Source: Nitrosopumilaceae archaeon (GTDB taxonomy: Archaea > Thermoproteota > Nitrososphaeria > Nitrososphaerales > Nitrosopumilaceae). Taken from it: a stretch of DNA of 32,338 nucleotides. Shown here one piece after another: positions 1 through 32,338 of this stretch. Made by a program: the position numbers and the translations under genes. The stretch is taken from NCBI GenBank assembly GCA_021296175.1, contig JAGWAX010000006.1, positions 1 to 32,338 on the forward strand, read 5' to 3'. The notes beneath the pieces are model-generated. The model was not told the DNA's origin. It searched no databases and saw nothing but the letters and a program-made list of their open reading frames with translations. Numbering within the stretch: position 1 is the first letter of the stretch; the number at the start of each line of letters is the position of its first letter.

Positions 1-54
1 AAAGCACAACTTGGCGTATTTTTGAAAATTAACACTGTCCGGAGACCCAAACAT
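1..54 (-). CDS. Outward-reading partial ORF within the repeat (left copy)
   Basis: ATG at 54 on the minus strand opens 18 codons to the window edge (MFGSPDSVNFQKYAKLCF) with no stop. A TATA-like ctatag lies about 24 nt upstream, across the repeat boundary. The same codons occur at the right end. It could be the 5' end of a duplicated gene or of an insertion-sequence gene reading away from the window. Too little is visible to name a family, and the frame may be accidental. Confidence 0.3.
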   Translation of the reverse strand, partial: MFGSPDSVNFQKYAKLCF

Positions 55-78
55 CAATTATTAATATTAGATACTATA
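2..78 (+). repeat. Left copy of 77-bp terminal inverted repeat
   Basis: Bases 2-78 are the exact reverse complement of 32262-32338; identity stops at 78/79 on the inner side. The outer side runs off the window, so the true repeat may be longer. It is more A/T-rich than its surroundings. It holds a TATA-like palindrome (taatatta, 62-69) 26 nt before the cupredoxin ATG at 91. On the minus strand it holds an ATG (54-52) opening an outward reading frame. It could be the end of an insertion element or duplicated gene, a recombination site, or a repeat at which an assembler stopped; 77 is a common assembler k-mer size. Confidence 0.95.
61..69 (+). promoter_or_regulatory. TATA-like box for the cupredoxin gene
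   Basis: ttaatatta is centred about 26 nt before the ATG at 91 and lies wholly inside the inverted repeat, so the repeat appears to supply the promoter. taatatta is itself a palindrome. Confidence 0.45.
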
Positions 79-90
79 GTTGCGGTGTTT

Positions 91-457
91 ATGGGGGGCG
101 CGGTCGGATCGTCAACCACGGTGTTAATGGTGATTTATCCCTCCTCCTCCCCGGCGTGGGGAGGGATTGAACCGGCTCCGGAATTGTGCGATTCGGGCTG
201 CGAGGCAACCACAGCCGGGTGCCACAACCATTTGGCGGTGACCGTAGCCGCAGACACGGAGATAACACTCTCGAACGCGGATGCCGCGGTCCACGCGTTG
301 ACTAGCGGCACTTCGGATGACGGGGCCGACGGTGTGTTTGACAGCAGGCTGGTAACGATCGGCTCCACGTGCAAGTTCACCATATACGAACCCGGCACGT
401 ACCACCGCTTGTCTGGTGCACCCGTGGATGCCCGGGCAGATCATAGTGTCCATATGA
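91..457 (+). pseudogene. Cupredoxin (plastocyanin/amicyanin-like), frameshifted
   Basis: Small exported blue-copper-type domain, as is abundant in ammonia-oxidising archaea, where such proteins are thought to carry electrons outside the membrane. ATG at 91 follows a TATA-like box by 26 nt; the frame is also open upstream through the repeat to the window edge. A hydrophobic N-terminal stretch precedes the domain. The first copper ligand is the His in VHALTSGT. The motif GVFDSRL and the PGTYH turn follow. After PGTYH the track frame loses the site, but the +1 frame gives CLVHPWMPG then a stop (455-457), which is the expected Cys, His and Met ligands. One extra base or two missing bases near 400-410 explains this. 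It is a pseudogene or a sequencing error. The track end at 495 is an artefact of the shift. Confidence 0.7.
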
Positions 458-491
458 ACGGCGACGGTACGACTGAGGACGCAGAGCATGC

Positions 492-3400
492 CTAGAATCT
501 TGCAATCCCCGCATCAAGCAGGTACTGGATGGACTCAACAAGGGTCTCGTCAGGGACGTGCCCCATGGCCCACCATCCGATCGGTGCGTCCAGCCATGCC
601 GGCAGCATCGAAGATCTTGCAAGGGGTGGCACGGTTGCGCCGTGCCCTTTCGTCTCGTTGCCACCCGCATCCGGCGCCTGCTTCACATCATCGCCATTGC
701 CATCGCCATCGCCATCGCCATTGCCATTGCCATCATCACCGGCGCCAAAAGCGGCGGAATCGTACGCGAGGATGTCCATGAGCACCAAGACAGACAGTTC
801 CCTGGCAAACTCGGCATCGGGTATCATGCCAACGGACCATTCGGATGCAGCGGCCCTAACAGAATCAGGGATCACCAAAGGAGTCGACTCCACATAGAAC
901 GTGAGAAGGGCAATGGGATCAGCATTCTGTCCGTACTCGACGGATACCGAATAGTTGCCCTGCGGATCGTTTCCACCCTTCAGGTTTATGATAGCGCCGT
1001 ATTTTCCATTGGCTCCCACGCGTATGTCAAATGACCGCTCGGTTCCGTCCGGATGCTTGACGGTGACGGCCGCTATGGAGTTTATCATATACGTGCCGAC
1101 GTTGCCAGAAAGCGTGATGGAGGAAACGTCACCCACGCGCTCCAATGCGACGCGGTTGGCGCTCAGGCTTGCAGATGGCTTGCGGGGCTGTTTGATCTCG
1201 GCGTCCGCAGTGCCGGCGCCACCAAAGCCGATATCGCCAGTGTCATCATCAGGTACAGGGCCGGCGGATCCCGATATGCTTCCCGTATTTCCCATCGTCA
1301 GGGGGGACTGAGTGCGGGCGCCGGATGAAGGGTCGGATTGTTGCTGCTGCTGACGCAGCATGCTAAACGTGCTTGGATTTCCCGACGAGTCAACAGAGTC
1401 GTAGTATACGACGTCCATGGCGCCTCCGGCGGGGGACATTAGATCGGAGCCGGACTTGTCGCATACCCGTGTCGGCATCTTGAACACCCCTTCGAACACG
1501 CCGGTTCCGGGGCCCGTCTCCACTAGTGTGAATCCCGTAGATGCAAGGCCTCCGTGCTGCACGCCGTCGACTGTGCAGCGCTTGTACCGGACGTCCTTGA
1601 ACTTTACCTCAAGCAGCGTATGGGCCCCGCTTCCCACCGTGTCTACGCTTGGCAGGCGCGAGTCGTCCACCACCCGGTACACTTCAATGGTATCCGCGGA
1701 CAGGTTGAGATCCGGATCGTTTAGCGTTATCGTAACCGGCGTGCCGAACCTCAGCTGCCCGGACGGCGTGGATACGGAGACCCTGCCGCTCTCCGACTTG
1801 ATCTCCGTCTCGGGCTGCGAGACGGACTGCGGTATGACGGCCCCCACCCGCGCCAGATCAGAGTATGTGATGGTAATGGCGTTCTCGTCGACCATCCGGC
1901 CGAGCGTGACGAACTTTACGTCGTTTCCTATCGGGGTCGTGCCAAGCACAAAGTCCGGATCGTCAATGTTGAGCTGGTTTGCGGCGGCAAACTCAAGCGT
2001 GCCCCCAAACACCCCCGAGTCCCCGGAGATCTCCTCGAGCTCAAGCCTGTATATTGCGTTGTTTACGATCTTCTTGCCCTCCACTCCAAGGGAAAAGACG
2101 TCAAACACCACGGGCGCCGCGTCCGCGGTCCCCACGCCTCCGGCGTCAAGCCCGCCACCGCCGGGTCCGAAATCTATCACCGCATGCACCGTGCCTCCTC
2201 CGCCCCCCTGCAGGCCAGAGGCAATCCTTTCCACATGGCCGGGATCCACGTACAGCAAACCTTGCGCCGCGCCCAGCCTGTCCGCGATTATGATCGGGTC
2301 CGCGTCCGACGTTCCCCCCACATACAAGAGCAGGGACGCTCCGCCCAGCCCCCCCACGCCGCCAAGGGAGCGCACGTCTATGTTGAACCAGTTGGTTCCG
2401 ATGTTCGACTCCCCAGATACGTCTATCAGCGTATCATACAGGCGCGATGCGGAGTATCCCGTGTCGATTGCAATCATCTCGTATGTGACGCCGCGGTCAA
2501 GCGCGGCCAGTCCAAGATCAAGGTGCAGACGGGCCGAGACGGGATCCGGCGAGCGCACCGGTATGGGCACGGCTCCCTCAAACGAGCCGCTGTCCGGGTA
2601 TGCGGCGGCCGAGGAGGCAGGGGACAGGGTCAGTGGCGAGCCAATCCTGATGGACGGGACGATGGCGCCGTCACGGAACACGTCAAGCCGGTCGCGCCGG
2701 TTTGGATCCGTGTTCTGATCGGCGTCTTGTAGCACCACAGGTATGCGCAGGCCCGAGCGCCAGCCCGAAGCGTCCACGGACAGGACGGGGCTGTCACTCC
2801 CGGTGGCGGCACCGGAGGCAGTTCCGCCAAGCGACAAGGAGGCGGTGTGGGAGCCGGTCAGTACAGAGAGCGACCGGTCGTTGTACGATATTACCGCAGA
2901 CGTCCCCCTGTCGGCGCCGGGCGCTATGCGCATGTTTGAGACGTGCGACGCGTCCACGCTCTCAAAGAGCCTCGAGTTGGGCCTGCTCTCGACCAGCGTT
3001 ACTATGCCCTCGTAGTGGCGCACGCCGTCGTATACGCTGTCGACAGGCTGGTTTCTGTTGGGCCGCAGCTCAAGCACGTTGCCGCCGCCACGCGAGATCT
3101 CCAGATATCCGTTGTCGCCGAACCCGAGCCTGCCAAGGTGCGGATACAGGTCCGCAAGCCCGGGGCCCCCGTTTGCAGCGGTGCGCCCCCCGTCATAGAA
3201 CGCCTGGTAGAACACCGAGGGGCTGCCGGGGGAGGTGCCAAACGTCCAAGAGTCCTCGTCGGTGGGATCCTGGTTGAGCTGCGGATCGCTCACCCGCAGT
3301 ATGACCTCGGCGCCCGCCGGATACGGCTCTGCCTGTCCGCGGTCAGTCGAAAACGATATGGACGAAATGTCGTCAGTATACTGCAGGACGACGCGCTGCG

Positions 3401-4178
3401 GGCCGCCGCCTCCCCGCTCGTACTCGATGCGCACGTCGCCGCCAAACGAGAAGAGCTGTATCACCGGCCATGCCCCGTCCTTGATTCCGATCTGCCCATG
3501 CAGGGGTTCGCCTCCGCTGGGCGACGGGGGGGATCTCACCACGTTGTTCTCCACAGGCGATGCAGGATCCACCAGCCCACCGCACGTCGAGAGCGGCTCC
3601 ACGCCGTTTGCAAAGTTCGAGAGCCCGCCGGAGCGGGGGACTGCCACGCCGTCAGAGTCGGGGAACTCGGCGCCCAGTACCAGTGCAGGCGTGCCGGGGC
3701 CGCAAAAGACGCCAAAGTCGAGTCCCTGTCCGGGCCGCCCCGCGTCACGGGATATTTGATCGGCCCGCCTTGCGGCGTCCTCGTTTGCAAAGTAGGCATA
3801 CCACTGGCCGCTGCCGGACTGGACCATGCGCAGCGTGGCCCCGTTTACGGACACCTTGGGCTCGCCGGCGGCCCCTCCCTTGGTATCGGAGATCAGCGGA
3901 TCGGCGACCACGACCTCGACTACCATCGACCCCGCAAAATGGTTGTCGAACTCGGGACTCTCGGCAGACACCAGCAGGTTGTCATTGGAGTTTTGGGCCG
4001 CATACGCGGGTGAAAATGGCAGGTCCGTGGCGCCGGGCGCGGCGGCCGCTACGGCCGCAAATAGGGCGCCGGCCACTGCAAGTATGGCATACGGGAGCAA
4101 TGCTCGCGCGGCGGGCCGCCGACTCACTGCAACGCGTCCCGAATGGCTGCAAACGGCCACGCCAAATGGATCCCTCAC
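492..4178 (-). CDS. Giant secreted S-layer-type surface protein
   Basis: About 1230-residue exported protein resembling the major S-layer proteins of Nitrosopumilus relatives. I recognise the N-terminal pattern of that family: LLVSAESPEFDNHFAG, then VVEVVVADP, VSVNGATLRMVQ and WYAYFAN. A signal peptide with an Ala-rich core (LLPYAILAVAGALFAAVAAA) ends near AYAA. Long beta-rich modules follow, and a C-terminal pair of short W-containing repeats (ending WWAMGHVPDETLVESIQYLL) like those in other thaumarchaeal surface proteins. Between them is a Gly/Asp/Asn linker from hexanucleotide repeats. The track start is ATG 4223. I prefer GTG 4178, because a TATA-like ttattatg is centred 26 nt upstream; GTG 4160 and 4127 are alternatives. 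It is divergent from the CDF gene. Confidence 0.82.
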   Translation of the reverse strand: MRDPFGVAVCSHSGRVAVSRRPAARALLPYAILAVAGALFAAVAAAAPGATDLPFSPAYAAQNSNDNLLVSAESPEFDNHFAGSMVVEVVVADPLISDTKGGAAGEPKVSVNGATLRMVQSGSGQWYAYFANEDAARRADQISRDAGRPGQGLDFGVFCGPGTPALVLGAEFPDSDGVAVPRSGGLSNFANGVEPLSTCGGLVDPASPVENNVVRSPPSPSGGEPLHGQIGIKDGAWPVIQLFSFGGDVRIEYERGGGGPQRVVLQYTDDISSISFSTDRGQAEPYPAGAEVILRVSDPQLNQDPTDEDSWTFGTSPGSPSVFYQAFYDGGRTAANGGPGLADLYPHLGRLGFGDNGYLEISRGGGNVLELRPNRNQPVDSVYDGVRHYEGIVTLVESRPNSRLFESVDASHVSNMRIAPGADRGTSAVISYNDRSLSVLTGSHTASLSLGGTASGAATGSDSPVLSVDASGWRSGLRIPVVLQDADQNTDPNRRDRLDVFRDGAIVPSIRIGSPLTLSPASSAAAYPDSGSFEGAVPIPVRSPDPVSARLHLDLGLAALDRGVTYEMIAIDTGYSASRLYDTLIDVSGESNIGTNWFNIDVRSLGGVGGLGGASLLLYVGGTSDADPIIIADRLGAAQGLLYVDPGHVERIASGLQGGGGGTVHAVIDFGPGGGGLDAGGVGTADAAPVVFDVFSLGVEGKKIVNNAIYRLELEEISGDSGVFGGTLEFAAANQLNIDDPDFVLGTTPIGNDVKFVTLGRMVDENAITITYSDLARVGAVIPQSVSQPETEIKSESGRVSVSTPSGQLRFGTPVTITLNDPDLNLSADTIEVYRVVDDSRLPSVDTVGSGAHTLLEVKFKDVRYKRCTVDGVQHGGLASTGFTLVETGPGTGVFEGVFKMPTRVCDKSGSDLMSPAGGAMDVVYYDSVDSSGNPSTFSMLRQQQQQSDPSSGARTQSPLTMGNTGSISGSAGPVPDDDTGDIGFGGAGTADAEIKQPRKPSASLSANRVALERVGDVSSITLSGNVGTYMINSIAAVTVKHPDGTERSFDIRVGANGKYGAIINLKGGNDPQGNYSVSVEYGQNADPIALLTFYVESTPLVIPDSVRAAASEWSVGMIPDAEFARELSVLVLMDILAYDSAAFGAGDDGNGNGDGDGDGNGDDVKQAPDAGGNETKGHGATVPPLARSSMLPAWLDAPIGWWAMGHVPDETLVESIQYLLDAGIARF
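690..741. repeat. Hexanucleotide tract (gccatc/gccatt)n
   Basis: Eight or so units of gccatc or gccatt encode a (Gly-Asp/Asn)n linker near the C-terminus of the S-layer-type protein on the minus strand. Such tracts change length by slippage in steps of two residues without breaking the frame. Confidence 0.8.
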
Positions 4179-4297
4179 GCGTATAACAAAGCCGGCCACA
4201 CATAATAACTGAATCCCGCCCATGAGACTGCAATGGCGGCGGCAGTGGCAGGGGAAGAAGAGTGGGCGGCGCGGAGCGGCCGGCTCCGACTACGGAT

Positions 4298-5842
4298 ATG
4301 CGCATGGTGGGCCGCATGAACGACGAAAATGGCGGCGGCGACGCACGTGCAGAGAGTTCCGCGGATAATCACAAGGGCGGCATGCCGGCCGCCGGTGCGG
4401 GTTCCGGTGCGGGTTCCGGTGCGGGTTCCGGTGCGGGTTCCGGTGCGGGCGCCGGCCGCACCAATGCCAGGGGCAGCAACAGGACAAGGGTCCTCTACAT
4501 GTCGCTTGCCGCAATATTCTCGGCATTCGTGGTAGAGCTGGTACTGGGGGTGGTGTCAAACAGCCTAGCGCTGATAACTGACAGCATACACGCGCTGCTC
4601 GACTGCATAGTCACGGTGGTGCTGCTGATTGCCACCAGAATGGCAATAAAACCGCCGGATGCAGAGCACACTTACGGGCACGGCAAGATCGAGTCCCTGG
4701 GCGGCATGATGGGCGGAATCGCCATATTTGCCATCGCGTGCTTCTTCATATACGAGTCGCTGCACCGATTCCAGTCGCCGCCCCCCTCCGTGCTGCCGGG
4801 CATGCTTGCAATCGCAGGCGGGTTGTACACCATAGGCGTGGACGTATTTCGCATAGTGCTGCTCAAAAGGAGCCTAAAGGTAGAGCCAGGGACGAGCCTC
4901 AGCGGCAGCACCACGGTAAAGGCCGACCTGTACCATGCGGTGATGGACCTGGGCTCCACCACGGTGGCCATAGTCGGAATATACCTCGCGTACACGGGCA
5001 CGCACCAGGGAGACCTGGCCGCGGCGCTGATCCTGGGAGGACTGCTTGCCGCCCTCAGCATAAAGCTGGTGCACAAGACGGCCCTTGACCTGACTGACGT
5101 GATATCGCCGGAGATGGTCTCGAAGGTCAGGGGCGTTGCCAACGGTACGGACGGCGTAATCATGACCGGATCCGTGCTGATGCGCCGATCAGGCGGCACC
5201 ACGTTTGCGGACATCACCGTGTCGCTGCGGGGCGACACGAGCTTTGAGCGCGCCCACGAGATCAGCGCGGGGGTGGAACAGAACGTGGCAGAGTGCATAC
5301 CCGGGGACGCCTCGATAACGGTACACTTTGAGCCGGACTGGAGCGGCGTTCCGCCCGATGCCAGGATACTCGACATCGCAAGGCGCGCGGACGGCGTCAA
5401 GGGCGTCCACAACGTCAACACCCGTATGACGGGGGGCAAGACGTACGCGGACCTACACGTGATGGTGGACAGCGAGATGAGCCTGCAGAGGGCGCACGCG
5501 ATATCAGAAGTTGTAGAGTCGGACATCAGGCGCCAGATGCCGCACATAGAGCACACCACGGTGCACCTGGAGCCGTTCACCAACATACCGCGCAACCTAG
5601 AGGCAGAGGATGCCGCGCTCAACGAGAAGATAAGGGCGATACTGGAAGGATATCCGCAGATAAGGGCCGTGGGCAGGATAATCGCCCTGAACGACAAGTC
5701 CGCGTTCAAGATAGACATAGACTGCTCCTTTGACGGCGCGCTTCCAATAGCGGAGGTTCACGGCCTCACGTCTGAGATTGAGCGCGCGATTGCAGAGGGT
5801 TTGGAGAACGCGGTAATTACGATACACCCGGAGCCCCTCTGA
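4298..5842 (+). CDS. Cation diffusion facilitator metal transporter with long C-terminal region
   Basis: CDF-family metal/proton antiporter that exports divalent cations such as Zn, Fe, Mn or Co across the cytoplasmic membrane. The two family metal-site motifs are visible: DSIHALLD in TM2 and YHAVMD in TM5. Six TM segments are expected across about residues 60-280. The cytoplasmic tail is unusually long and holds three successive ferredoxin-like metal-binding/dimerisation modules. They share the pattern (T)FADITV / YADLHVMV, then HE(A)IS...VE, then TVH(F/L)EP, where CDF proteins normally carry one. The N-terminus has a GAGS repeat linker. ATGs at 4298, 4304 and 4316 and the track GTG at 4262 are all in frame, so the start is uncertain. 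The specific metal cannot be told. Confidence 0.88.
   Translation: MRMVGRMNDENGGGDARAESSADNHKGGMPAAGAGSGAGSGAGSGAGSGAGAGRTNARGSNRTRVLYMSLAAIFSAFVVELVLGVVSNSLALITDSIHALLDCIVTVVLLIATRMAIKPPDAEHTYGHGKIESLGGMMGGIAIFAIACFFIYESLHRFQSPPPSVLPGMLAIAGGLYTIGVDVFRIVLLKRSLKVEPGTSLSGSTTVKADLYHAVMDLGSTTVAIVGIYLAYTGTHQGDLAAALILGGLLAALSIKLVHKTALDLTDVISPEMVSKVRGVANGTDGVIMTGSVLMRRSGGTTFADITVSLRGDTSFERAHEISAGVEQNVAECIPGDASITVHFEPDWSGVPPDARILDIARRADGVKGVHNVNTRMTGGKTYADLHVMVDSEMSLQRAHAISEVVESDIRRQMPHIEHTTVHLEPFTNIPRNLEAEDAALNEKIRAILEGYPQIRAVGRIIALNDKSAFKIDIDCSFDGALPIAEVHGLTSEIERAIAEGLENAVITIHPEPL
4394..4453. repeat. 12-bp tandem repeat in CDF N-terminus
   Basis: Four exact copies of ggtgcgggttcc and a fifth imperfect copy encode Gly-Ala-Gly-Ser repeats before the first TM helix. 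The unit is a multiple of three, so slippage keeps the frame. Confidence 0.9.
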
Positions 5843-5873
5843 ACGGCTGCGGCCGCGCCTCGCATGCGCCGGA

Positions 5874-7193: not shown

Positions 7194-8373
7194 ATGCGGC
7201 AGCGGGGCCGGTCACGTCCCGGGCCTGCTCCCCGGCCGCGCCGGAGGATTCCCCGGTGTCGGCATACCCGTCACCGTTGCCGCCGTCATTATAATCGCCG
7301 TCACTACCACCACCACCATCTTCTTCTTCTTCTTCTCCAGTCCCCGAATCCTTGACCAGAAACACCCCGACCCATCCCTTCTCGGAGAACTCGACCTTGT
7401 GCGCGTGGAACAGGAATTTGCCCGTATGCTCGTACGTGAACTCCATTATGCCGCGCTCCGTCTGCGACAGTGTAATCATGTCGGTGTAGAATGATGCAGA
7501 CTGGTCCGTTCCGGTAGGATAGTAATAGAACAGGTTTCCGTGCAGGTGGAAGTTGTTTATCGGGTCAAACTCCACCATGTTGACCACGTATACGCGTATC
7601 AGCCGGTCCCTCTCTATCTGTATCGGGTGGTGCTGGTAGTAAAACGGGACGGTGTTCGCCGCGTAAAAGTTGTTCTCCGTGTCAAAGTCAGTGTCAAACC
7701 CGTTCAGCACCATGACCAGCTCGTCGGCCGGGGCCCTGCCCTCCTCCGGATCCACTATAAACACGCCGTACAGGCCGTGTATGATGTGCTCCTCAAGCGG
7801 CATGATGTGGCAGTGGTACGGGTGGACGCCCACGGGCCCCGCCTCAAACTCGTATGTGAACTGTCCGCCCCCGCCCCCGACGGGCTCAAAGACCCCGTCC
7901 ATTATGGCCGGGTGTATCCCGTGAAAGTGCATCGTGTGCGGCTTTGTGCCGTTGTTGACGAACGTTATGCGCACCAGGTCGCCCTCCGTGGCGCGTATGG
8001 TAGGGCCCGGCACGGTTCCGTTGAACGTCCACACGTTGTAGAACACCCCGGGCGCAACCTCCTGCACGAGATCATCCTCGGCCACTATGACATACTCGCG
8101 TATGGTCTGGCCCGTCTCGTTGTGTACGGATACACGGCCGTACTCAAAGTTGCGCAGGTACTCGTCGGGGTCAAACTCCACCTCCGATACCTGGTATATG
8201 GGATCAAGCACCTCGCCCGTGGTCGTGATTACCGCGCCCGTATGGGTGAGAAAGGTCTGCGGCGGCCGCTGGGCCTCCGTATACACGTCGGAGATTGCCG
8301 TCGCGGACAGCACGGCAATGGCGGATGCCGCGGCCAGCGCCAGTATCACAGCCCGGAGGCGCCCAGTTGCCAT
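7162..8373 (-). CDS. Two-domain multicopper oxidase (NirK/laccase-like)
   Basis: Exported two-cupredoxin-domain multicopper oxidase of the kind widespread in ammonia-oxidising archaea. These include the archaeal NirK-type nitrite reductases and other oxidases. A signal/anchor helix spans residues 7-28. Domain 1 has HTMHFHGIHP and HPYHCHIMPLEEH, whose HCH...H holds the type-1 Cys. Domain 2 has NNFHLHGN and FHAHKVEF, with Ala where a second type-1 Cys would be, so the mononuclear copper sits in domain 1. The C-terminus is a long acidic Gly/Asp/Glu tail encoded by simple repeats and runs into the ZIP start. Whether the substrate is nitrite, a metal ion or a nitrogen intermediate cannot be decided from sequence. 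A TATA-like run (tttatttaaat, 8393-8403) lies 26 nt upstream. Confidence 0.85.
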   Translation of the reverse strand: MATGRLRAVILALAAASAIAVLSATAISDVYTEAQRPPQTFLTHTGAVITTTGEVLDPIYQVSEVEFDPDEYLRNFEYGRVSVHNETGQTIREYVIVAEDDLVQEVAPGVFYNVWTFNGTVPGPTIRATEGDLVRITFVNNGTKPHTMHFHGIHPAIMDGVFEPVGGGGGQFTYEFEAGPVGVHPYHCHIMPLEEHIIHGLYGVFIVDPEEGRAPADELVMVLNGFDTDFDTENNFYAANTVPFYYQHHPIQIERDRLIRVYVVNMVEFDPINNFHLHGNLFYYYPTGTDQSASFYTDMITLSQTERGIMEFTYEHTGKFLFHAHKVEFSEKGWVGVFLVKDSGTGEEEEEDGGGGSDGDYNDGGNGDGYADTGESSGAAGEQARDVTGPAAAYDGREAPDGA

Positions 8374-19322: not shown

Positions 19323-19532
19323 TTGGGGCACCGTCGAGTTGCGGCGGCGGCGATCGGGGTGGCGGCTGCAGGGATGGCGGCATGCATGACGGCGGCGGCA
19401 TCTGCCCCTCCGCATGGCGCCTTCAAATACGGCATTTACGGACTAGAACTATCACGCCGTGCGGATCCGGCGGACTCGGATTCGCATGACGTGTCGCGAC
19501 CGCGCACGGAAGGGCCGTACAGGTATAGCTAA
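19323..19532 (+). CDS. Possible small secreted peptide
   Basis: A 69-residue frame from TTG 19323. Its first 26 residues resemble a signal peptide: basic n-region, Ala/Gly/Met-rich core, and AASA before PPHGAF. The rest is polar. No TATA-like box is seen upstream; it could be read through from pgk 66 bp before. An overlapping frame exists, so this may be chance in G/C-rich DNA. Confidence 0.3.
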   Translation: MGHRRVAAAAIGVAAAGMAACMTAAASAPPHGAFKYGIYGLELSRRADPADSDSHDVSRPRTEGPYRYS

Positions 19533-19629
19533 AAGCAAAAGTCCCCGGGGGATCAAATTTGCCAAATGTAATGCGCCATGTTCACCGCGGCCGTCACCGT
19601 TCGCGGGAACCGCGCCTGGCGCCGCCTCG

Positions 19630-21810
19630 TCAGTCGGCCCCGGTCACCGTCACGCCGACCATCCGGAAATTGCTCGTGCCAAAGTCGCCCGTCGAGGTGG
19701 CGTTGACGGCGTACTTGGCCTTGTCAGGATAGTCAGCGGACGGTTTTACCACCAGGGTGTTTCCATCGATCTCAAAGAGGTCAGAGTCCCCGCCGGTTCC
19801 TATGCCGTATGCCGGGTTCTGGCCGTCAAGGATCGGGTTTTGCGCGGCGATGTTTCCTACCTTCTTCGCTGCGCCGTCGTCGCCGCCGCGTAGGTCGATG
19901 GACGCGTTGTCCAGAACGACGTACCAGCTGCCCAAGTTTTGAACGAAGGACGAGGCGCGGCCGAACATCCGGTCCATGTTTTTCACGTTTGAGACGCCCC
20001 ATCCGGAGACGTCGCCGTTGAAGGACGATGCGATGTGGAACATCTCCCCCATGTTGGTCACGCCCGAGACGTCCCATCCGGAGACGTCACCGTTGAAAGA
20101 TGACCTGCTGAACATCCTGTACATGTTTTCCACGTTTGAGACGTCCCATCCGGAGAGGCGGCTGTGGAAGAACGGCGTACCCTGGAACATGCCGCTCATG
20201 TCCGTCACTGTGGAGACGTCCCAGTTTGAGATGTTTTCGTTGAAGGCAGAGCCGCTGAACATGTAACCCATGTCCGTCACTTTGGAGACGTCCCAGTTTA
20301 GATGTTTTCGTTGAAGGCAGAGCTGCAAACGTTTCGTGCATGTCCGTCACGTCCGAGACGTCCCAATTTGAGATGTCGCCGCTAAAGTCAGAATCTTGGA
20401 ACATGCCGCTCATGTTAGTCACTTTGGAGACGTCCCAATTTGAGATGTCGCCCTTGAATTTAGAATTTTGGAACATGCCGCTCATGTTAGTCACTTTGGA
20501 GACGTCCCAACCGGAGATGTCGCCGTTAAAGTCAGAATCTTGGAACATGCCGCTCATGTCAGTCACTCCGGAGAGATCCGGAGTATCTGCAGTATGGGAT
20601 GTAAACACCACTTTTCTGAACGCGAAAGCCATAGACTCCCATTGGGCGTCACCCCACTGTTCAATTGACACGGTTTTGTAGGCGTTATCGTGATCTTCGG
20701 TAAGCAGTATCCTCGTAAAGTCGCCATATATGCGGACAGTGTATTCCCCGGCATCCGTATACGCGTGGCTCTGGTCTCCGGTGACGTTGGCAGATATGCT
20801 GCCGTCGCCCCAGTCTACCGTGTAGGCGCCAGTCGCGTTGCCCACAGGGATGGTTATGGACTCGTTTGGCGAGATGGTCCTCCACGTGGTGACAAACGGC
20901 CTGTCGCCGGTGTCTTCTATGTCGGCGCTGCTGAGCCTCGGGTTCCTGGGCGCGTCTGGCTGTTTGTCGGCAGGCACGAATCCCAGGTTTAGCATCGTTC
21001 TGACGTCGTCATGGGACACCCTCAGGGACAGCGTTACTCCGTCCGGGCACGAACAGCCATCACACACAATTTGGTGGGTGCGCTCCGTCTTGAGATCTAA
21101 CACGTCCACGCCCAAACCCGCATAATACGCCCTGAGCACGTCCAGGCTGTGCACGTGTCCCCACGGATTGCCGCCACATTGTATGGGGTCGATTTGGATC
21201 CAGGCCGTTTCCTCCACGTCGTCCAGGACTGCCGGGATTTCAAACAGCTCGCCGGCGCCTATCTGTCGCACCATATCGTACGCCGACAGGGCCTGGATTT
21301 CTCCAAGCGGCACGCTGGCAGTCACAAACGACAGGGAACTGGCCGCGGCCACATTCGTGGCACCGTGGCAATCAACAAGTATCTGTTTCACTGCCTGCTT
21401 GTCTGTATCGGAGACTATGAGCAGCACGGAATAACTGCCGGTGACGTTGGCGTCCAACATCTCGCTGATCCTGTCGAACAGTCCCGCGTCGAACTTTCCG
21501 GCATTGGCGGTTTCCTGCCGGTCCTTGCAGTCTTTCCCGCTGTGGGATGTTTCCGGGCTTGCCTGCAACCCGGCTGCCGCCTTCCATCCCCTTTCTGCAA
21601 GTTTGGCAGATGATGACTCGTTGACGCACGCCGGCGTGCCACCGGGTGACTGCATCAGTATTTGCCGTCGCGGCACTGTATCTCGTCGAATGGGACGCCT
21701 TCCCGTATCTGCTGAAGCGGGGACGGGATCGCGTCGGCGCCTGCGGCAGGCACGGCAGCTGACAGCACGAATGCCGCCAGCGCGAGACCGGGCATCGCGG
21801 CTTTCAGCAT
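19630..21810 (-). pseudogene. Secreted PKD + DUF285 (BspA-like) repeat protein, three frameshifts
   Basis: ATG 21810 follows a TATA-like acatatat (26 nt) and opens a signal peptide (GLALAAFVLSAAVPAAGADA), then a segment typical of thaumarchaeal exported proteins (PLQQIREGV...IQCRDGKY). A TGA follows, but one frame over the sequence continues LMQSPGGTPACV and SAKLAERGW; one missing base near 21657 explains it. Then come a PKD-like domain (YTVDWGDGS...AYTDAGEYTVRIYG) and eight DUF285 units of the type ISNWDVSKVTNMSGMF. Two more 1-bp losses (about 20300 and 20324) are obvious against the next repeat. BspA-like proteins are adhesins or surface proteins in other microbes. The two track ORFs (607 and 232 aa) are pieces of this gene. 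Real decay, phase variation or base-calling errors are all possible. Confidence 0.8.
19960..20580. repeat. Array of about 75-bp DUF285-coding repeats
   Basis: Eight tandem units share a core such as gagacgtcccantttgagatgt and cat(g)ccgctcatgt. Neighbouring units are highly similar in DNA as well as protein, for example the two units around 20390-20540, pointing to recent internal duplication. Confidence 0.85.
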
Positions 21811-21879: not shown

Positions 21880-22053
21880 TCAATTGGTGCGTAGGGTTCC
21901 TTGAGCACATAGGGCGGACCGATTAGCGCCAACCCTATTGACGCAGAGACTATCTTCCAATTCGCGATATAGACTCTGGGCCGGCATATCACTCTTGACG
22001 CCCATGTCACGAATTGGAAGCAGCACCCAACAGGAAGACTTCAGAATACGCAC
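21880..22053 (-). CDS. Possible 57-residue hypothetical protein
   Basis: GTG 22053 opens 57 codons (MRILKSSCWVLLPIRDMG...) with a TATA-like gcatataatc about 20 nt upstream. An overlapping 66-residue frame (22010-21810) with one hydrophobic stretch (IVSASIGLALIGPPYVL) competes with it. The 350-bp interval 21811-22160 is more A/T-rich than its neighbours and may hold remnants of a gene. No family is recognised. Confidence 0.22.
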   Translation of the reverse strand: MRILKSSCWVLLPIRDMGVKSDMPAQSLYRELEDSLCVNRVGANRSALCAQGTLRTN

Positions 22054-22160
22054 GAACTTTGGATCGGGATTATATGCCGGCTTATTGGGGGAAAAATCAT
22101 ATCCGTATGTTTGATTTCATATGTTCCACTAACACTAACACTTACACCGATGCCAAGTTC

Positions 22161-23060: not shown

Positions 23061-24616
23061 TTTACGGCCCCGTCCTCCTCTTTCTTGCCGCGCACCGCAA
23101 ACTTTTGCGCCACCGCGTCAAGCGATTCTACCAGCGCGTCGATCTCGGAGGTCGTATTGTACAGGTAAAAGCTCGCCCTTGACGTGGCCGCCACGTCGAG
23201 CTTTTCCATCAGCACCTGCGCGCAGTGGTGTCCCGACCGGAGCGCCACGCCGGCCTCGTCTATTATGTACGCGACGTCGTGCGGGTGCACCGACTGGAAG
23301 TTAAACGAGATGACGCCGCCGCGCCTCGAGGCGTCCTTTGGCCCGTATATCTTGAGATCCGGCACGGCCGACAGTTTCTCTAGCGCATATTTCGTGAGGA
23401 GCACCTCGTGGCTTCTGACGTTCTTCATCCCGATCCGCTCAAGATAGTCTATGGCGGCACCCAGCCCTATCACGTCGGCGATGTTTGGCGTGCCGGCCTC
23501 GAACTTGTACGGCAGGTCGTTCCACGTGGACTCGTACTTGTGCACCTCGCGTATCATGTCGCCGCCCCCGTGGAACGGCACCATCTCGCCCAGCATTCTC
23601 TTGCTAGCCCAGAGTATGCCTATGCCGGTGGGCCCCAACATCTTGTGGCCGGAGAATGCAAAAAAGTCACACCCGAGCGACGCGATGTCGACTGGCATGT
23701 GCGGCACGGCCTGGGCGCCGTCCACCAGCGTGGGGACGTCGGCGGCCTTGCACTTTGATATGATTGCATCGGCGTCTGTGATGGTGCCAAGCACGTTTGA
23801 CATCAGGCTGAACGCGACCAGCCTCACCCTCCCGGTCCCAAGCAGCCTGTCCAGATCGTCAAGAATCAGCTCGCCGTTGTCGTCAATCCTGACATATTCC
23901 AGGACCGCCCCCCTTTCCTCGGCCACGAGCTGCCACGGCACAATGTTGCTGTGGTGCTCGTATTCCGTAGTGACTATGATGTCGCCGGGCTTTACGTGGC
24001 CCCTTCCCCACGCGTACGCCACCAAGTTGATCGCCTCAGTAGTGCCGCGGACGAATATTATCTCCTGCCGGTCCTTGACGTTTACAAACTTGGCCACCTT
24101 GTCCCGGACCGCCTCGTAGGCCTCAGTGGCCTCCTCGGCGAGCGCGTATACGGCCCTGTGGGTGTTCGCATTGTACGTCCTGTAGTAGTCGCCTATCGCG
24201 TCTATCACCTGCGTGGGCTTTTGCGTGGTGGATGCATTATCCAGGTATACCAGGGGCTTGCCGTCCCTGACGGTCCTGGCAAGTATCGGAAAGTCCCCCC
24301 GGAGATCCTCAAAGTTTACTGCGGGCGGCGCAGTGGATTTTGTTTGCGAAGGGGGCTGCTGTGGCCGCGGCTGTTGAGCATTGTGCGGCAGTTTTTGCTG
24401 CTGCTGCGGTTGCTGCTGCTGTGGTGTTTGCTGCTGCGGTTGCTGCTGCTGTGGTGTTTGCTGCTGCTGTGGTGTTTGCTGCTGCTGCTGTGGTTGTTTT
24501 TGCACATGCTGTGATTGCCGATGATGTCGATTCCGGCGGCGTGCCTTTTTGCCCTGCTGTTGCTGTTGTTGTGGCTGCTGCTGCCGTGATGGTTGCCCAT
24601 TCTGAGTCGCGTCCAT
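23057..24616 (-). CDS. sufS: SufS cysteine desulfurase with polyglutamine N-terminal extension
   Basis: PLP enzyme that takes sulfur from cysteine for Fe-S clusters. The conserved domain starts at FEDLRGDFPIL near residue 100: YLDNASTTQKP, TTEYEHHSNIVPW, VDGAQAVPH, the PLP lysine in FSGHKMLGPTGIG and the catalytic Cys (about residue 465) in RSGHHCAQVLM. The first 95 residues are unusual, with Gln-Pro-Thr repeats ((Q)n-TP, Q-PQQQ) around a basic patch (KKARRRNRHHR). They are encoded by near-pure ctg/ttg-type microsatellite. SufS proteins normally lack this. The stop overlaps sufU; Rieske ends 9 bp upstream. Confidence 0.95.
   Translation of the reverse strand: MDATQNGQPSRQQQPQQQQQQGKKARRRNRHHRQSQHVQKQPQQQQQTPQQQQTPQQQQPQQQTPQQQQPQQQQKLPHNAQQPRPQQPPSQTKSTAPPAVNFEDLRGDFPILARTVRDGKPLVYLDNASTTQKPTQVIDAIGDYYRTYNANTHRAVYALAEEATEAYEAVRDKVAKFVNVKDRQEIIFVRGTTEAINLVAYAWGRGHVKPGDIIVTTEYEHHSNIVPWQLVAEERGAVLEYVRIDDNGELILDDLDRLLGTGRVRLVAFSLMSNVLGTITDADAIISKCKAADVPTLVDGAQAVPHMPVDIASLGCDFFAFSGHKMLGPTGIGILWASKRMLGEMVPFHGGGDMIREVHKYESTWNDLPYKFEAGTPNIADVIGLGAAIDYLERIGMKNVRSHEVLLTKYALEKLSAVPDLKIYGPKDASRRGGVISFNFQSVHPHDVAYIIDEAGVALRSGHHCAQVLMEKLDVAATSRASFYLYNTTSEIDALVESLDAVAQKFAVRGKKEEDGAVK
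24370..24590. repeat. CAG/CAA (polyGln) microsatellite in sufS
   Basis: On the minus strand, runs of cagcagcagcaa with aca and cca interruptions encode Gln-rich repeats (TPQQQQ units). Other frames of the same tract give the poly-Ala, Asn/Ser and Leu ORFs of the track, which are shadows. Confidence 0.9.
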
Positions 24617-26465: not shown

Positions 26466-26506
26466 TGCATTATCAACTCACAGGCAGCGGGCAGGCACGA
26501 CGGCGG

Positions 26507-27907
26507 TCACCCCACGGAGTCGTCCATCTCGAGCTTTATCAGCCGGTTCAGCTCCACCGCATACTCCATCGGGAGCTCCTTTGTGAACGGCTCCATGAAC
26601 CCGTTTACTATCAGCGACAGGGCCTCCTCCTCCGTAAAGCCCCGGCTCATCAGGTAGAATATCTGGTCGTCGCCGATCTTGCCTACGGTGGCCTCGTGCG
26701 TGATGGTGGCGTCCTCCTGGTTTATCTCCATGTACGGGTACGTGTCGGTCTTCGACGTGTCGTCAAGAAGCAGCGCGTCGCACCTTACGGTCGACTTTAC
26801 GTTGGTCGCGCCCTTTGCCACGTTGAGCAGTCCGCGGTACGTGGAGCGCCCGTCATGCCTGCTCACTGACTTGGAGGTGATCTTTGACTTTGTGTTTGGC
26901 GCCAAGTGCACCATCTTGGCGCCCGTGTCCTGATGCTGCCCCTTGCCTGCAAAGGCAATCGACAGCGTCTCGCCGTATGCGCGCTCTCCCATCAGGTACA
27001 CGCCGGGATACTTCATCGTGAGGCGGCTTCCAATGTTGCCGTCAATCCATTCCACCGTGGCCCCTTCGTACGCGTAGGCGCGCTTTGTCACCAGGTTGTA
27101 CACGTCGTTGCTCCAGTTCTGGATTGTGGTATACCGCAGGCGGGCGTCCTTGTGGGCCACCAGTTCCACCACCGCAGAGTGCAGTGATTCGGACGAGTAT
27201 ACGGGAGCCGTGCAGCCCTCTATGTAGTGGACCTCTGCGCCCTCGTCTACGATGATCAGGGTGCGCTCAAACTGCCCGATGTTCTCCGCGTTTATCCTAA
27301 AGTATGCCTGGAGTGGCATGTCGACCTTTACGCCCGGCGGCACATAGATGAACGAGCCGCCGCTCCAGACGGCGCTGTTGAGGGCCGCAAACTTGTTGTC
27401 CTCGGGTGGTATGACTTTGCCAAAGTACTTGCGGAATATTTCAGGCTGCTCCTTTAGCGCCGAGTCGGTATCAAGGAACATCACGCCCTGCTTTTGCAGG
27501 TCCTCCCTGAGGTTGTGGTATACGACCTCGGACTCGTACTGGGCCCCGACGCCGGCCAGGAATTTCTTCTCGGCCTCTGGAATTCCAAGCTTGTCAAATG
27601 TGTTCTTTACGTCGGCCGGAACGTCGTCCCAATTCTTCTCGGTCTTTTCTGACGCCTTTGCATAATAGTAGATGTTCTGAAAGTCTATCTTGCTCAGGTC
27701 GCCGCCCCACGTGGGCATGGGTTTTTTCATAAACGTCTCATATGATCTCAGCCTAAAGTCGAGCATCCACTGCGGCTCGTCCTTCATCTTGCTGATTCCA
27801 ATTACCGTCTCCTTTGTGAGCCCCTTTTTGCTCAGGTGGACGTACATTTCAGTGGAATCCTTAAAGTCATACTTTGAATAATCCATCTCAAGGTTCTCAG
27901 TTGCCAT
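26507..27907 (-). CDS. sufB: SufB, Fe-S assembly scaffold subunit
   Basis: Main scaffold of the SUF system, where clusters are built on the SufBC2D complex. Highly conserved: [76 protein letters not shown] and [19 protein letters not shown] 27907 ([11 protein letters not shown]) is chosen because attataaat (27929-27937) is centred 26 nt upstream; the track ATG 27919 would lie too close to that box. First gene of the leftward suf cluster. SufC, the required ATPase, is not beside it. Confidence 0.96.
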
Positions 27908-27918
27908 CACACACGACA

Positions 27919-27929
27919 TAACGTCGTTA
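27919..27929. promoter_or_regulatory. Palindrome between TATA box and sufB start
   Basis: TAACG-T-CGTTA is a perfect 5+1+5 inverted repeat directly downstream of the sufB TATA box, a position where a bound repressor would block transcription. Role inferred from position only. Confidence 0.4.
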
Positions 27930-27948
27930 TTATAAATAGATGTGGGAA

Positions 27949-27976
27949 AATAGGCAGAGCTAAATAGGCGCAGCTA
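27949..27976. repeat. 14-bp direct repeat upstream of sufB promoter
   Basis: aataggcagagcta is followed at once by aataggcgcagcta (12 of 14 identical), 12 to 40 bp upstream of the sufB TATA box on the minus strand. It could be a pair of activator sites or a chance duplication. Confidence 0.5.
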
Positions 27977-28011
27977 AAGGAAGGGAGGAAGGAAGGAGCG
28001 GGTAGGGAGAG

Positions 28012-28839
28012 TCAGAACAGGCCCGCAAACGAGAGCAGCGCGACGCAGCCCATTATGATTGCAAACCACCAAAAGCTGACCCTGCCCGCTATACCCACTA
28101 GTACGCGCATCGACAGGTACCCGAACGCAAAGGAGAGCGCAAGCCCCACCAGCAGTTCGGAGGGTTCGGCATCCGGGAATCCGTACACAAGCAGGAGTCC
28201 CGCTTGGGCCGTCAGCACGGCGGGAATGCCCATCAAAAAGGAGAGGCGCAGGGCCTCGGGCGCCGAGTATCCGCGCAGGAGAAGCGCAGAGACCGTGACG
28301 CCGGACCGGGACAGCCCGGGCAGGGCGGAGAACGCCTGGACCGCCCCGAGAAGTATGGTGTCACGCAAGTTGAGCGACGCGGCGGACTTTAGGCCGGCGG
28401 CATATGCGGCAGGGCCCTGCCGCCTCTTGGTGGCATACAGGATTACCCCCGTCGCTATCAGCGCGATCCCGACCAGTCCGAGCAGGAACTCGCCGGATAC
28501 GGCGCCCGCATCCGCGGCAAACGCAAACACGGAGAATCCGAGCGCCCCGCTCAGGAGCGTGGATACGACCAGGAACGTAATCATGCCGTCGGAGGGGCTG
28601 CCGTATCCGGGGTGGTAACCGCTTGCACTGCGGAGTATGCGTGCTATGTCCCGGCGCAGGTACAGGGCCGCTGAGCCGGCCGTTCCAAGGTGCAGGAAAA
28701 ACGACAGGTCCGCCGCGTCTTGGGGCGCGTACCCGAATATCCCGGTCATTATAATGACGAGCTCGCCCGTGCTGGATATGGGGAGCCACTCAAGGACGCC
28801 CTGCAGCATGCCAAATATCGCCGACTCGGCAAGCGCCAT
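28012..28839 (-). CDS. uppP: Undecaprenyl-diphosphatase-type (UppP/BacA) membrane phosphatase
   Basis: Integral membrane phosphatase that recycles polyprenyl diphosphate; in archaea the lipid carrier for protein glycosylation and surface glycans would be the substrate. Both family signatures are visible: LQGVLEWLPISSTGEL (residues 13-28) and the Ser/Arg motif LPGLSRSGVTVSALLLRG (about 175-192). About eight TM helices; 275 residues is normal. The ATG at 28839 follows ctattaactc (28861-28870) by 26 nt on the minus strand. Its 3' end lies 105 bp from the sufB start. Confidence 0.92.
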   Translation of the reverse strand: MALAESAIFGMLQGVLEWLPISSTGELVIIMTGIFGYAPQDAADLSFFLHLGTAGSAALYLRRDIARILRSASGYHPGYGSPSDGMITFLVVSTLLSGALGFSVFAFAADAGAVSGEFLLGLVGIALIATGVILYATKRRQGPAAYAAGLKSAASLNLRDTILLGAVQAFSALPGLSRSGVTVSALLLRGYSAPEALRLSFLMGIPAVLTAQAGLLLVYGFPDAEPSELLVGLALSFAFGYLSMRVLVGIAGRVSFWWFAIIMGCVALLSFAGLF

Positions 28840-29187
28840 GGACGTCGGGACACGCCGCGTCTATTAACTCTAGCAGGATGCAGGCAAGGGGGCGCGAGCA
28901 GGGCCCTTTTTGTACGTCCGGCCAACCGCGGACTGCGGGGCGCGATATATTGTATGCTGCCAAACTATATCGGGATCAAAGAATGGTTCCGTTGCGAATT
29001 CGCAAGATTCTACGAAACCACCGCACGAAACTCACGGTTTGTTGACGCTTCCCGCTTCGGTCCTTAAGTTTTACAAATATGTCTATTCCCGGTTCCGTTT
29101 CAATTCGTGACCTGTATGTCGAAGGGCGGGTGACGAGTACCTGACCATGCTCGCACCGTGCAATCATATGGTCATTCATATCGCAGC
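28840..29187. other. A/T-richer spacer of the accessory region
   Basis: About 350 bp without a firm gene. It holds the uppP promoter at its left end, an imperfect direct repeat (ggttccgttgcgaattcg at 28983 and ggttccgtttcaattcg at 29092), and a weak 67-residue minus-strand frame (listed separately). Composition differs from the G/C-rich core to its left. Confidence 0.45.
28976..29179 (-). CDS. Possible 67-residue basic protein
   Basis: ATG 29179 opens MNDHMIARCEHGQVLV... ending RFRRILR-type basic residues (WFRRILRIRNGTIL). It is divergent from the broken gene at 29188. No TATA-like box at the usual distance and no family recognised. It may be a remnant. Confidence 0.25.
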   Translation of the reverse strand: MNDHMIARCEHGQVLVTRPSTYRSRIETEPGIDIFVKLKDRSGKRQQTVSFVRWFRRILRIRNGTIL

Positions 29188-29597
29188 ATGGCCGCAAGGG
29201 GGGCAACGGATTTTAATGAATTCCGGTCGAGGCTGTCGGCGGAACTGGGATCCGCGGAGCCGTTCAAGACCATGCATCAGTCAAGGGCATTTGAGGCAGC
29301 AATGGCAGGCGACTATGCGGTAGCCGCCATACCGGGATCTTCGGCAAGCCCCCGGAACGTGCCGATGAGCTAGTTTCGACGGATGCGGGATATGATGAAG
29401 GACGACGCGCGGGGCGAAAGATATGCAATATTGCCGGCCGCTATCGCGACTTTTTTAACAGGTCCTACATTTGCGCGCTGATCGACTATATCGTAGCGGA
29501 CCAGGGCATGCGGCGAGTGCCAGAGTGGGAGATGCCCAATCCGCCGCGTTGCCACATCCTGCAAAAAAAAGAAATGATCAGGCCCTCTAATCTGTAG
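29188..29597 (+). pseudogene. Frameshifted conserved-looking gene of unknown function
   Basis: ATG 29188 opens a soluble protein (DFNEFRSRLSAELGSAEPFK, HQSRAFEAAMAGDYAVAA). The track frame stops at 29373. The -1 frame continues naturally from about 29340: IFGKPPERADELV, GRYRDFFNRSYICALIDYI, RRVPEWEMPNPP, ending IRPSNL and TAG at 29595-29597. One missing base near 29335-29345 restores about 136 residues. The second half looks like real coding sequence with aromatic-rich helices. I do not recognise the family with confidence. It overlaps the 3' end of the minus-strand remnant by 11 bp. Confidence 0.55.
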
Positions 29598-30190
29598 CGA
29601 CAGGGTACGGGCTGGCGTTCTGCAGGACGGTCTTTCGCTTGTTGGCGGCCTCCGTGGCGATGCCCGCGGCCTCCGTGGGGGTCTTGCGTATGATATCATG
29701 GGAATTATACCTCTAGGCGGCCGCCACACCCTTCGACGGCTTCCCCGTAAGGTCCGACGCATCCTCGCCGCGCCCTTTACGAAACTTTTTGCGCCGCCCG
29801 TTGTACCCGGATGCGGTGGACGTCGACATGTTCTCGCTCTCGCTCTCGTTCTCGTTCTCGTTCTCGTAAAACGCGATCGTCTTCCCAAGCCCTGCAATCC
29901 CACCCTTCGGCGCACCGTTCTCGGCCCTTGCCTTGCCCTCCCTCCCATGCGATGCCTTGAGCTCCCCGCGCGGGAGCCCGGCGTCCGCGCCATCTCCGGC
30001 CTGCGCGTCAAGAAGCGTCCGGAGTCCTTGCCCGGCCCTCAATCTGCCTGCGCCGCCTCCAGGGCCCTCCCCCGGCCCTCAGTCCGGGACTGCATCTCAT
30101 TTAGAATCCTCATCCGGGCGGGGGATTCACTCCGGCGCCTGCCATACGGGCACGCAAGGAGGCAGGCTCTGAGGGCTGACCAGTTTTTCT
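29587..30190 (-). pseudogene. Decayed minus-strand gene, polar low-complexity protein
   Basis: A minus-strand reading frame is interrupted twice. From about 30190 it reads NWSALRACLLACPYGRRR and RILNEMQSRTEGRGRALEAA, stops, then continues one frame over near 30040 as RAGQGLRTLLDAQAGDGAD through an (Glu-Asn)n/(Glu-Ser)n microsatellite and a basic patch (GRRKKFRKGRG). It hits TAG at 29713, and continues in the same frame to TAG at 29587 (SHDIIRKTPTEAAGIATEAA). No start is visible upstream. Function unknown. The arginine content and helices might suit a nucleic-acid-binding protein. Confidence 0.4.
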
Positions 30191-30293
30191 ACTCTAATTG
30201 ATCAAACTATCCTGCATCCCGCAACTCGGATTCAAGGTTGTACGTGCGAGGGCCGCGTGAATTCGTACATGTCTGCCTGTTTGATTCTTTTTT

Positions 30294-30329
30294 GTACTGA
30301 GTACTTATATTACTTTAGTACAATTACTA
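30294..30329 (+). promoter_or_regulatory. Promoter with flanking palindromes for the AbiE-like pair
   Basis: TATA-like cttatatta (30304-30312) is centred 26 nt before ATG 30335. It is bracketed by two inverted repeats: GTACT-G-AGTAC (30294-30304), touching the box, and TAGTA-CAAT-TACTA (30316-30329) between box and start. They share the AGTA(C) half-site. This is the layout expected of an autorepressed toxin-antitoxin operator. Confidence 0.6.
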
Positions 30330-30334
30330 TACAC

Positions 30335-31111
30335 ATGTTGTACGAGCAGATAAGGCATGCCGGCGTCATCCGGAGGATGTACAAGATGAGGCACCTGCTA
30401 AACCAGAAGAAACCGCCGGAAATGGGCACAAGACTCGGATACCCAAAGTACAGCAAGCAGTTCTACAGGATCAAGTCAAAGCTTAGGAAGGAGGGGATAA
30501 CCGGCGACCGCGGGACGTTCGTGGAAAACCCGCCCAACCTGCACATGGCGGCAATGGTGCTACGCGTGGATGCGGCGCAGATCAGCGTGCTGGGGCACAA
30601 GGTTCCGTACGTCCTGTTCCTAGCGCTAATCGCAGGCCCGCCCAGAAAGGCATCATGCTTGGCAAGGGAATGCGGTTTTAGCAGGAAGGCCGTATATGAC
30701 GTGCTGGGGAGGATGGAGGGGGCAGGCCTGGCAGGGAGGGACGGTTCTGCGGCTGCAGCGGCAGCAGAAGACGGCCCTGCCCGAACGTGGCTGGAAGAGT
30801 ATCTGGAGGCTGCCAGGGCGTGGGTCGACTCCAGCGGAGACGCCTCTGCCCTGTTTAACGCGATCCCCTCGTACGTGGGAGGCCCCCACGTGCGCCGTCT
30901 GTCGCATTATGAGTCGGGTGCCCCGATGGGCCCTGCAGAGATGCACATATTCACGTACAAGCCGTTGCTCGGCTTGATGGAGACAATGGTAAAAGAGAGC
31001 CGGCATTTTAGGAATTACCCAAAACCCGTGTCCGTCAAGCCGCATTACGGCGTGCAGGTGCAGAGCGCGGATGGCGCGTCCCGGAGCGGCGCCCAAAGGA
31101 TCGGCAGTTGA
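30335..31111 (+). CDS. AbiEi-like winged-helix antitoxin/repressor
   Basis: A 258-residue protein immediately upstream of an AbiEii-like nucleotidyltransferase. Residues 1-75 are basic with a helix-turn-helix look (KYSKQFYRIKSKLRKEGIT). A second winged helix lies near residues 95-145 (LALIAGPPRKASCLARECGFSRKAVYDVLGRMEGAGL). The C-terminal half (AMFN-type ALFNAIPSYVGGP to PHYGVQVQ) is probably the toxin-facing domain. In known type IV AbiE systems the AbiEi protein represses its own promoter through inverted repeats and counters AbiEii. The assignment rests on gene order, size and HTH rather than clear sequence identity. Start ATG 30335 is set by the promoter; the track start at 30257 precedes the TATA box. 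The stop is 1 bp from the toxin ATG. Confidence 0.6.
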   Translation: MLYEQIRHAGVIRRMYKMRHLLNQKKPPEMGTRLGYPKYSKQFYRIKSKLRKEGITGDRGTFVENPPNLHMAAMVLRVDAAQISVLGHKVPYVLFLALIAGPPRKASCLARECGFSRKAVYDVLGRMEGAGLAGRDGSAAAAAAEDGPARTWLEEYLEAARAWVDSSGDASALFNAIPSYVGGPHVRRLSHYESGAPMGPAEMHIFTYKPLLGLMETMVKESRHFRNYPKPVSVKPHYGVQVQSADGASRSGAQRIGS

Positions 31112-31112
31112 G

Positions 31113-31997
31113 ATGGGCGCCTTTTTCTTCATAGACGACAGGCTGGTCAACCTTGATGATCCGACTGCGATGGTAAAAGACGAGCACTACGAACGCTTTG
31201 CAAGGAGAGAGTTCGCGCCGTTCATACGCTCTGAAATATGCGCGCTGGACATGCTGTACGCGGTTGCCGACATGAGGGACGGGCATTACGTGGAAAGGCT
31301 CAGCCTGAGAGGAGGGCTGTCCGTCCGGAGCGTGGTGCCCCTGGCAGACCACAGGTTCTCGTTTGACGCCGACTTTAGTCCCAACACGCCGGGGGGATTC
31401 ACCTACAGGCACGTGGGCGATCTGAAAAGCGACATGATGCGGTACGGGACAACGAAGGGGTGCAAGACGCGCGTCCGCGTCACCACGAACGACGCCAAGC
31501 TGTTCTTTATGGAGGTCGGGTACAGGAAATCCCTAGGGCCAAACCACGGGATAATAGAGCCCCCCAAGATTGAGGTGTGCAAGACCTGTCGAGTTTTGAA
31601 AGAACCCGTGCTGGGCCCTGTTGAGACGATCATTGATCTGGATATTCTGGGACTGGATCCCCCCAAAATTGCCCATCTTTCCTTGGAGGAGCAACTTGCC
31701 ACGAAGCTTTTCGTGATAGGCTCTAGCGGCAGGCAGAGGAACCACTTTGACGCGTATGACTCGTTCAGGATACTCAAGCACAACGAGCCGGACATGAGGA
31801 GGACGCGTGACATATTCAAGGAGTTGTGTGGCAGGCATAAATCAAGGCCATCCGTCTATGCCTCCGAGTGCAGGCGACAACTTGACGCGATGCGCAAGAA
31901 TTCCAAAAAGCGGGCAAGCTTGGAGGAGACCGCGTTTGCAGACGAGTTCGACTTTAATGCCATGGTGGCGACTGTAAACTCATTTTATGATTTTTAA
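31113..31997 (+). CDS. AbiEii-like nucleotidyltransferase toxin
   Basis: A 294-residue protein with the polymerase-beta-like nucleotidyltransferase pattern of the AbiEii family. LSLRGGLSVRS (GG-S motif) is followed by RFSFDADFS (the R-S-x-D-x-D motif, catalytic Asp pair). In the C-terminal half comes LSLEEQLATKLFVIGSSGRQRNHFDAYDSFRIL, matching the family's E-x2-LA-x-KL...R...D-x-YD block. A CKTC pair lies in the middle. AbiEii-type toxins transfer nucleotides to RNA targets, and MenT relatives modify tRNA; the target here is unknown. ATG 31113 is used because it directly follows the antitoxin stop; the track start at 31071 lies inside that gene. Confidence 0.78.
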   Translation: MGAFFFIDDRLVNLDDPTAMVKDEHYERFARREFAPFIRSEICALDMLYAVADMRDGHYVERLSLRGGLSVRSVVPLADHRFSFDADFSPNTPGGFTYRHVGDLKSDMMRYGTTKGCKTRVRVTTNDAKLFFMEVGYRKSLGPNHGIIEPPKIEVCKTCRVLKEPVLGPVETIIDLDILGLDPPKIAHLSLEEQLATKLFVIGSSGRQRNHFDAYDSFRILKHNEPDMRRTRDIFKELCGRHKSRPSVYASECRRQLDAMRKNSKKRASLEETAFADEFDFNAMVATVNSFYDF

Positions 31998-32261
31998 CGG
32001 CGCCTGCGTCTCGGACGTGGTACCTGTTGATTGGCCACGGTGTGGAGCAAAAATCTTTGCCATAATCCGACTGGCAAGCACAAGGTATGCTGCGACTCCC
32101 GCGGGGATGAGCAATGAGATTGGCGTGCCTGTTCAGGGAAAAACGGGGACAAGGACTCATTTAAGGCACCTGACGCCAAAAAAGAATGTGATTCCGCTCA
32201 GCGCGTACGAGAGGATCAAAAGCGCCAGAAAGTCAACTGGAATGTTTTCATAGTAGCGGTA
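31998..32261. other. Terminal spacer with hydrophobic minus-strand remnant
   Basis: On the minus strand, the frame entering from the right repeat reads ENIPVDFLALLILSYALSG, then FFFGVRCLK, a TGA, VLVPVFP, a second TGA, and TPISLLIPAGVAAYLVLASR before ending near 31990. Two TM-like helices in one frame broken only by two TGA codons suggest a decayed membrane protein. A plus-strand 88-residue ORF (31987-32253) covers the same DNA and looks like its shadow. No gene is called. Confidence 0.35.
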
Positions 32262-32338
32262 TATAGTATCTAATATTAATAATTGATGTTTGGGTCTCCG
32301 GACAGTGTTAATTTTCAAAAATACGCCAAGTTGTGCTT
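32262..32338 (-). repeat. Right copy of 77-bp terminal inverted repeat
   Basis: Perfect reverse complement of bases 2-78. The inner junction at 32261/32262 falls inside a TATA-like stretch (gtatatag). Reading outward on the plus strand, an ATG lies at 32286. Reading inward on the minus strand, the frame that carries the cupredoxin ORF at the left end here continues into a hydrophobic stretch with two in-frame TGA codons. With core genes between the copies, recombination between them would invert about 32 kb; no inverted form is visible in this sequence. Confidence 0.95.
32286..32338 (+). CDS. Outward-reading partial ORF within the repeat (right copy)
   Basis: ATG at 32286 opens 17 full codons identical to the left copy and is still open at the window end. 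A better TATA match (gtatatag, 32259-32266) is centred 24 nt upstream, the spacing used by other leaderless genes here. This supports a real gene start in the repeat, possibly a transposase or other duplicated gene whose body lies outside the window. Function unknown. Confidence 0.35.
   Translation, partial: MFGSPDSVNFQKYAKLC

Follow-up and report, generated by a model that had tools for sequence, protein, structure and literature searches.

Gene content and ends of the contig

The window analysed here, a stretch of 32,338 nucleotides, is a whole contig (G000:C1) of a Nitrosopumilaceae MAG of 1.78 Mb with 60% G+C. Between the two insertions discussed below, the unique chromosomal segment (positions 79-32261) encodes CDF and ZIP-like transporters, a multicopper oxidase, ribosomal proteins S13 and S4, GlmS, Pgk, Suf/NifU proteins and a BacA/UppP family protein. 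The sequence-only reading had seen mostly core chromosome in this content (ribosomal proteins, suf, glmS and pgk) and had described the contig ends as exact 77-bp reverse-complement arms with abrupt inner edges; the former is correct and direct comparison upheld the latter.

A few features of the interior deserve mention. Repeats occur within the gene for a DUF285/PKD surface-type protein (19945-20581), and the beginning of the SufS gene holds a CAG-like, minus-strand repeat (24355-24614). Just inside the right end, at 30257-31997, a TrmB-like winged-helix gene (below the Pfam cut-off) overlaps a gene for an AbiEii-like nucleotidyltransferase, and the two are a possible type IV toxin-antitoxin pair; no match to the AbiEii-like gene was found among 40 relatives. 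Abutting the right insertion, a membrane-protein-like frame with two stops (32049-32261, minus strand) is probably a decayed gene, for which a search of 30 relatives returned no match.

Each arm of the inverted repeat occupies one end of the contig. Over 77 nt, bases 2-78 match the reverse complement of bases 32262-32338 at 100%, and no other inverted repeat of 30 bp or longer occurs within the window; shuffled sequences gave no chance match to the arm pair, even with 3 mismatches allowed. Divergence at the inner edges is sharp, the shared ACTATA being followed by GTTGCGG on the left and by TACCGCT on the right. The arms have 31% G+C, against 60% for the contig. We refer to the terminus that both arms carry as the ‘right’ end. 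The left arm (2-78, minus strand) reads outward from base 78, with a TA target at bases 77-78, after which the element begins with TAGTATCTAATATTAATAATTGAT. The second copy of the same terminus lies in opposite orientation (32262-32338, plus strand) and reads outward from base 32262. In both, the TA together with the 24-bp terminal inverted repeat that follows it makes up TATAGTATCTAATATTAATAATTGAT (53-78, minus strand; 32262-32287, plus strand).

Within the genome, searches for the whole arm placed it at the window ends only, and 60 relatives yielded only weak AT-rich chance matches. As an exact 29-mer, the arm was found neither in genome-contig nor in viral-contig collections, and plasmid and phage collections contained no match to it. 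Rfam and tRNA searches at the window ends were likewise empty, hence the arm corresponds to no known RNA gene.

Length of the arms

Comparison of contig tips covered 1.23 Mb of the same MAG, 85 kb of which are masked bases; sequence amounting to about 30% of the genome (contigs below 3 kb, which were masked, some contigs including C142-C166, and long-contig ends) fell outside the comparison. Exact runs of 75-79 bp common to other places were found at 61 of 197 contig tips and at none of 197 interior controls, which were windows 1 kb further in from the tips. Outward-reading exact runs between tips of different contigs cluster at 75-79 bp, with a maximum of 79, and exact repeats of 80 bp or more were absent among the compared contigs. 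Because tip matches pile up in this range and stop short of 80 bp, the length of the arms is set by the assembly: 77 bp is a property of the assembly, whose word is near 80.

The proposal that 77 was itself the assembler k-mer is thus to be dropped, as the ceiling is at 79 exact bases (a word near 80) and 77 falls under it. The companion proposal, that the contig stops where the assembly graph branches at a real and longer repeat, is supported by the shared tips and by the length ceiling. The arms are exact terminal matches under an assembly-wide length ceiling, which is the mark of end overlaps at collapsed repeats. They resemble the graph-end overlaps left at such repeats by de Bruijn graph assemblers in their exact terminal matches, fixed upper length and occurrence at dozens of tips. 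They differ from the usual case in that both ends of one contig enter the same repeat, so that an inverted pair arises where two contigs would otherwise match each other.

Partner termini in other contigs

A partner, or ‘left’, end with the sequence TATAGTGACTAATAGTGATATTTGAT was identified at the tips of contigs C88 (L118, positions 52-77) and C165 (L191), which agree exactly over 75 bp. After the TA, 19 of 24 bases in the C88 sequence are identical to those of the window terminus (shuffle p 0.001). The right end and the left end, TAGTGACTAATAGTGATATTTGAT, are paired terminal inverted repeats, each located at exactly two contig tips. A pattern covering both ends, TATAGTNNCTAATANTNATANTTGAT, when searched with at most two mismatches, has only four matches in the genome, two in the window contig and one each in C88 and C165. 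Neither 59 congeners nor reversed controls contained this pattern, and the genomes to which L181 and L182 belong, the two closest high-G+C relatives, lack it as well. TA adjoins the terminus at all four junctions and may be a duplicated target in each copy, the pairing of the flanks being ambiguous. Since each of the two ends occurs twice, the element is present in more than one copy, and the four tips are accounted for by two copies of one element.

Transposon class of the termini

Many of the shared tips are families of transposon-like termini with differing unique flanks. A TATAG[TC] start was found 70-85 bp from the tip at 17 of 197 tips (0.57 expected), both window ends included. In three contigs such ends lead into DDE_3 (PF13358) transposase sequence: C50 (end at 1147, DDE_3 at 153-545), C48 (end at 860, DDE_3 at 12-302) and C72 (end at 488, DDE_3 at 160-405). 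Elements with TATAG termini in C48, C50 and C72 thus encode a DDE transposase, and the body of the element studied here lies outside the assembly; among internal elements, an initial scan retrieved no complete one with TATAG at both ends. Transposase sequence of the DDE_3 kind is of IS630 type.

The element at the window ends shares with the IS630 family (IS630-Tc1-mariner group) inverted repeats at its termini, imperfect and about 24 bp long, and TA at all four of its junctions, and its TATAG[TC] terminal motif is that of the DDE_3-encoding elements of this genome. IS630-Tc1-mariner elements target TA (PMC8533490). Beyond TATAGT, the terminus at the window ends differs from the other TATAG groups in the genome, and it has an A+T content far above that of the host genome.

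Two further TATAG-type stretches occur inside the window. One is a 39-bp remnant (22028-22066) with 92% identity to the terminus of another TATAG-type element, found at the C63/C99 tip; the other (19524-19573) is an isolated, terminus-like TATAG..CAAAAGT stretch.

Two probable inverted copies of an IS630-like element

We consider it very probable that two inverted copies of one AT-rich IS630/Tc1-mariner-like insertion sequence, inserted at TA, flank the 32-kb segment. Insertion-sequence copies in inverted orientation had been suggested from the arms themselves, and the terminal repeats together with the partner ends at C88 and C165 bear this out. Both copies would turn the same right end towards the window, and their left ends would form the tips of C88 and C165. 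A short-read assembler with a word near 80 would have followed unique DNA for 77-78 bases into each copy and then stopped, as the two copies are indistinguishable from that point. The layout would be C165, element, window, element (reversed) and C88, with the window lying either this way or the other way round.

The whole element would be a single short sequence running from TAGTGACTAATAGTGATATTTGAT to ATCAATTATTAATATTAGATACTA. IS630 elements are typically about 1 kb in size. The body is probably missing since the MAG retains no contig below 2 kb: the smallest contig among those compared measures 2002 bp, so a collapsed element contig of about 1 kb would drop out. We infer the body of the element, its transposase and its mobility; transposition would most likely proceed by cut-and-paste into TA sites.

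A non-autonomous, MITE-like derivative of the same transposon class could stand at both ends in place of a full insertion sequence, which we regard as unlikely but worth serious consideration. Each end is visible for 77-79 bp only, with no certain coding region, and the genome has other orphan TATAG-type termini, of which the one at window positions 22028-22066 is an example. On the other hand, DDE_3 transposase sequence accompanies the TATAG termini of several other elements in this genome; the element at the window ends would itself fit either form.

Orientation of the 32-kb segment

With two copies in inverted orientation, the two possible layouts are the two products of an inversion between the copies, and the assembly cannot tell them apart. 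The orientation of the 32-kb segment relative to C88 and C165 is ambiguous, and its inversion is possible under this arrangement. At the C88 tip (L118, 53-613) the element interrupts a gene whose product has weak similarity to an HNH-like protein from G012. The rest of this gene was found at neither window end nor among the compared contigs, which hints at later rearrangement or decay. At C165, the DNA downstream of trpA differs in each of two near relatives. Since neither the continuity of the C88 gene nor the comparison downstream of trpA gave a join, the pairing of neighbours to window ends stays ambiguous.

A role of the pair as a functional switch, with recombination between the copies inverting the 32-kb segment, or as a composite unit that mobilises this segment, is improbable. 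Inverted copies do flank the segment; the interrupted, weakly HNH-like gene at the C88 junction, with no continuation at the window ends, would fit rearrangement after insertion, and the C165 partner end sits in a spot downstream of trpA that is different in each relative. Loss of the gene remainder is, however, equally explained by decay or deletion. Cut-and-paste IS630 elements are, to our knowledge, not known to carry 32-kb composites. We likewise give little credence to the idea that the pair flips this core-gene segment in the living population, with two genome forms coexisting.

A purely technical origin of the arms, by a chimeric foldback or false terminal duplication of sequence that is not a real repeat, is very improbable. 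The arm length is indeed tied to the assembly word, but a foldback has a single junction, at which a sequence meets its own reverse complement, whereas here two different unique flanks run into the same arm at places 32 kb apart; moreover, the matching partner terminus is present at exactly two other contigs, and the arm has the terminal repeat of a transposon class found at many other tips. The perfect inverted repeats at both contig ends might suggest that a whole linear replicon, a virus or plasmid ending in such repeats, makes up the window. This reading can practically be dismissed, for the interior carries normally single-copy chromosomal genes (S13, S4, glmS, pgk, suf) in place of replicon-type content, the partner termini sit in other contigs, the repeat length equals an assembly ceiling common to dozens of other tips, and neither phage and plasmid collections nor viral contigs contain the arm.

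Genomic context

Two transposon ends bounding a contig are ordinary for a transposon-rich archaeal genome, the kind of element being already known and the member new. When a MAG contig ends in a perfect inverted repeat, the repeat can be read as the fingerprint of an insertion sequence, with a length set by assembly, and matching the opposite termini at other tips reveals indirectly both the missing element and the number of its copies. In this genome, transposon insertions underlie many of the contig breaks, and how this core segment is ordered and oriented is ambiguous.

The S4 protein has 88% and 81% identity to those of two MAGs (JAJEHG01 and JAPPIP01), whose fetched loci also have 60% G+C; sampled congener loci have a G+C near 28-35%. 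Some sponge-associated thaumarchaeota combine raised G+C with more transposases (PMC7848895). This combination would fit the present genome.

Because several further repeated-terminus families break the assembly, the number of different mobile elements in the genome is probably large. These families include GGCGCTGTCCA..., GTAGTTAAGG..., GTTACCGGTTAG..., ATAGTTAGTTGC... and others, with example tips at L075, L082, L054 and L114, at L033, L069 and L088, and at L103 and L157.
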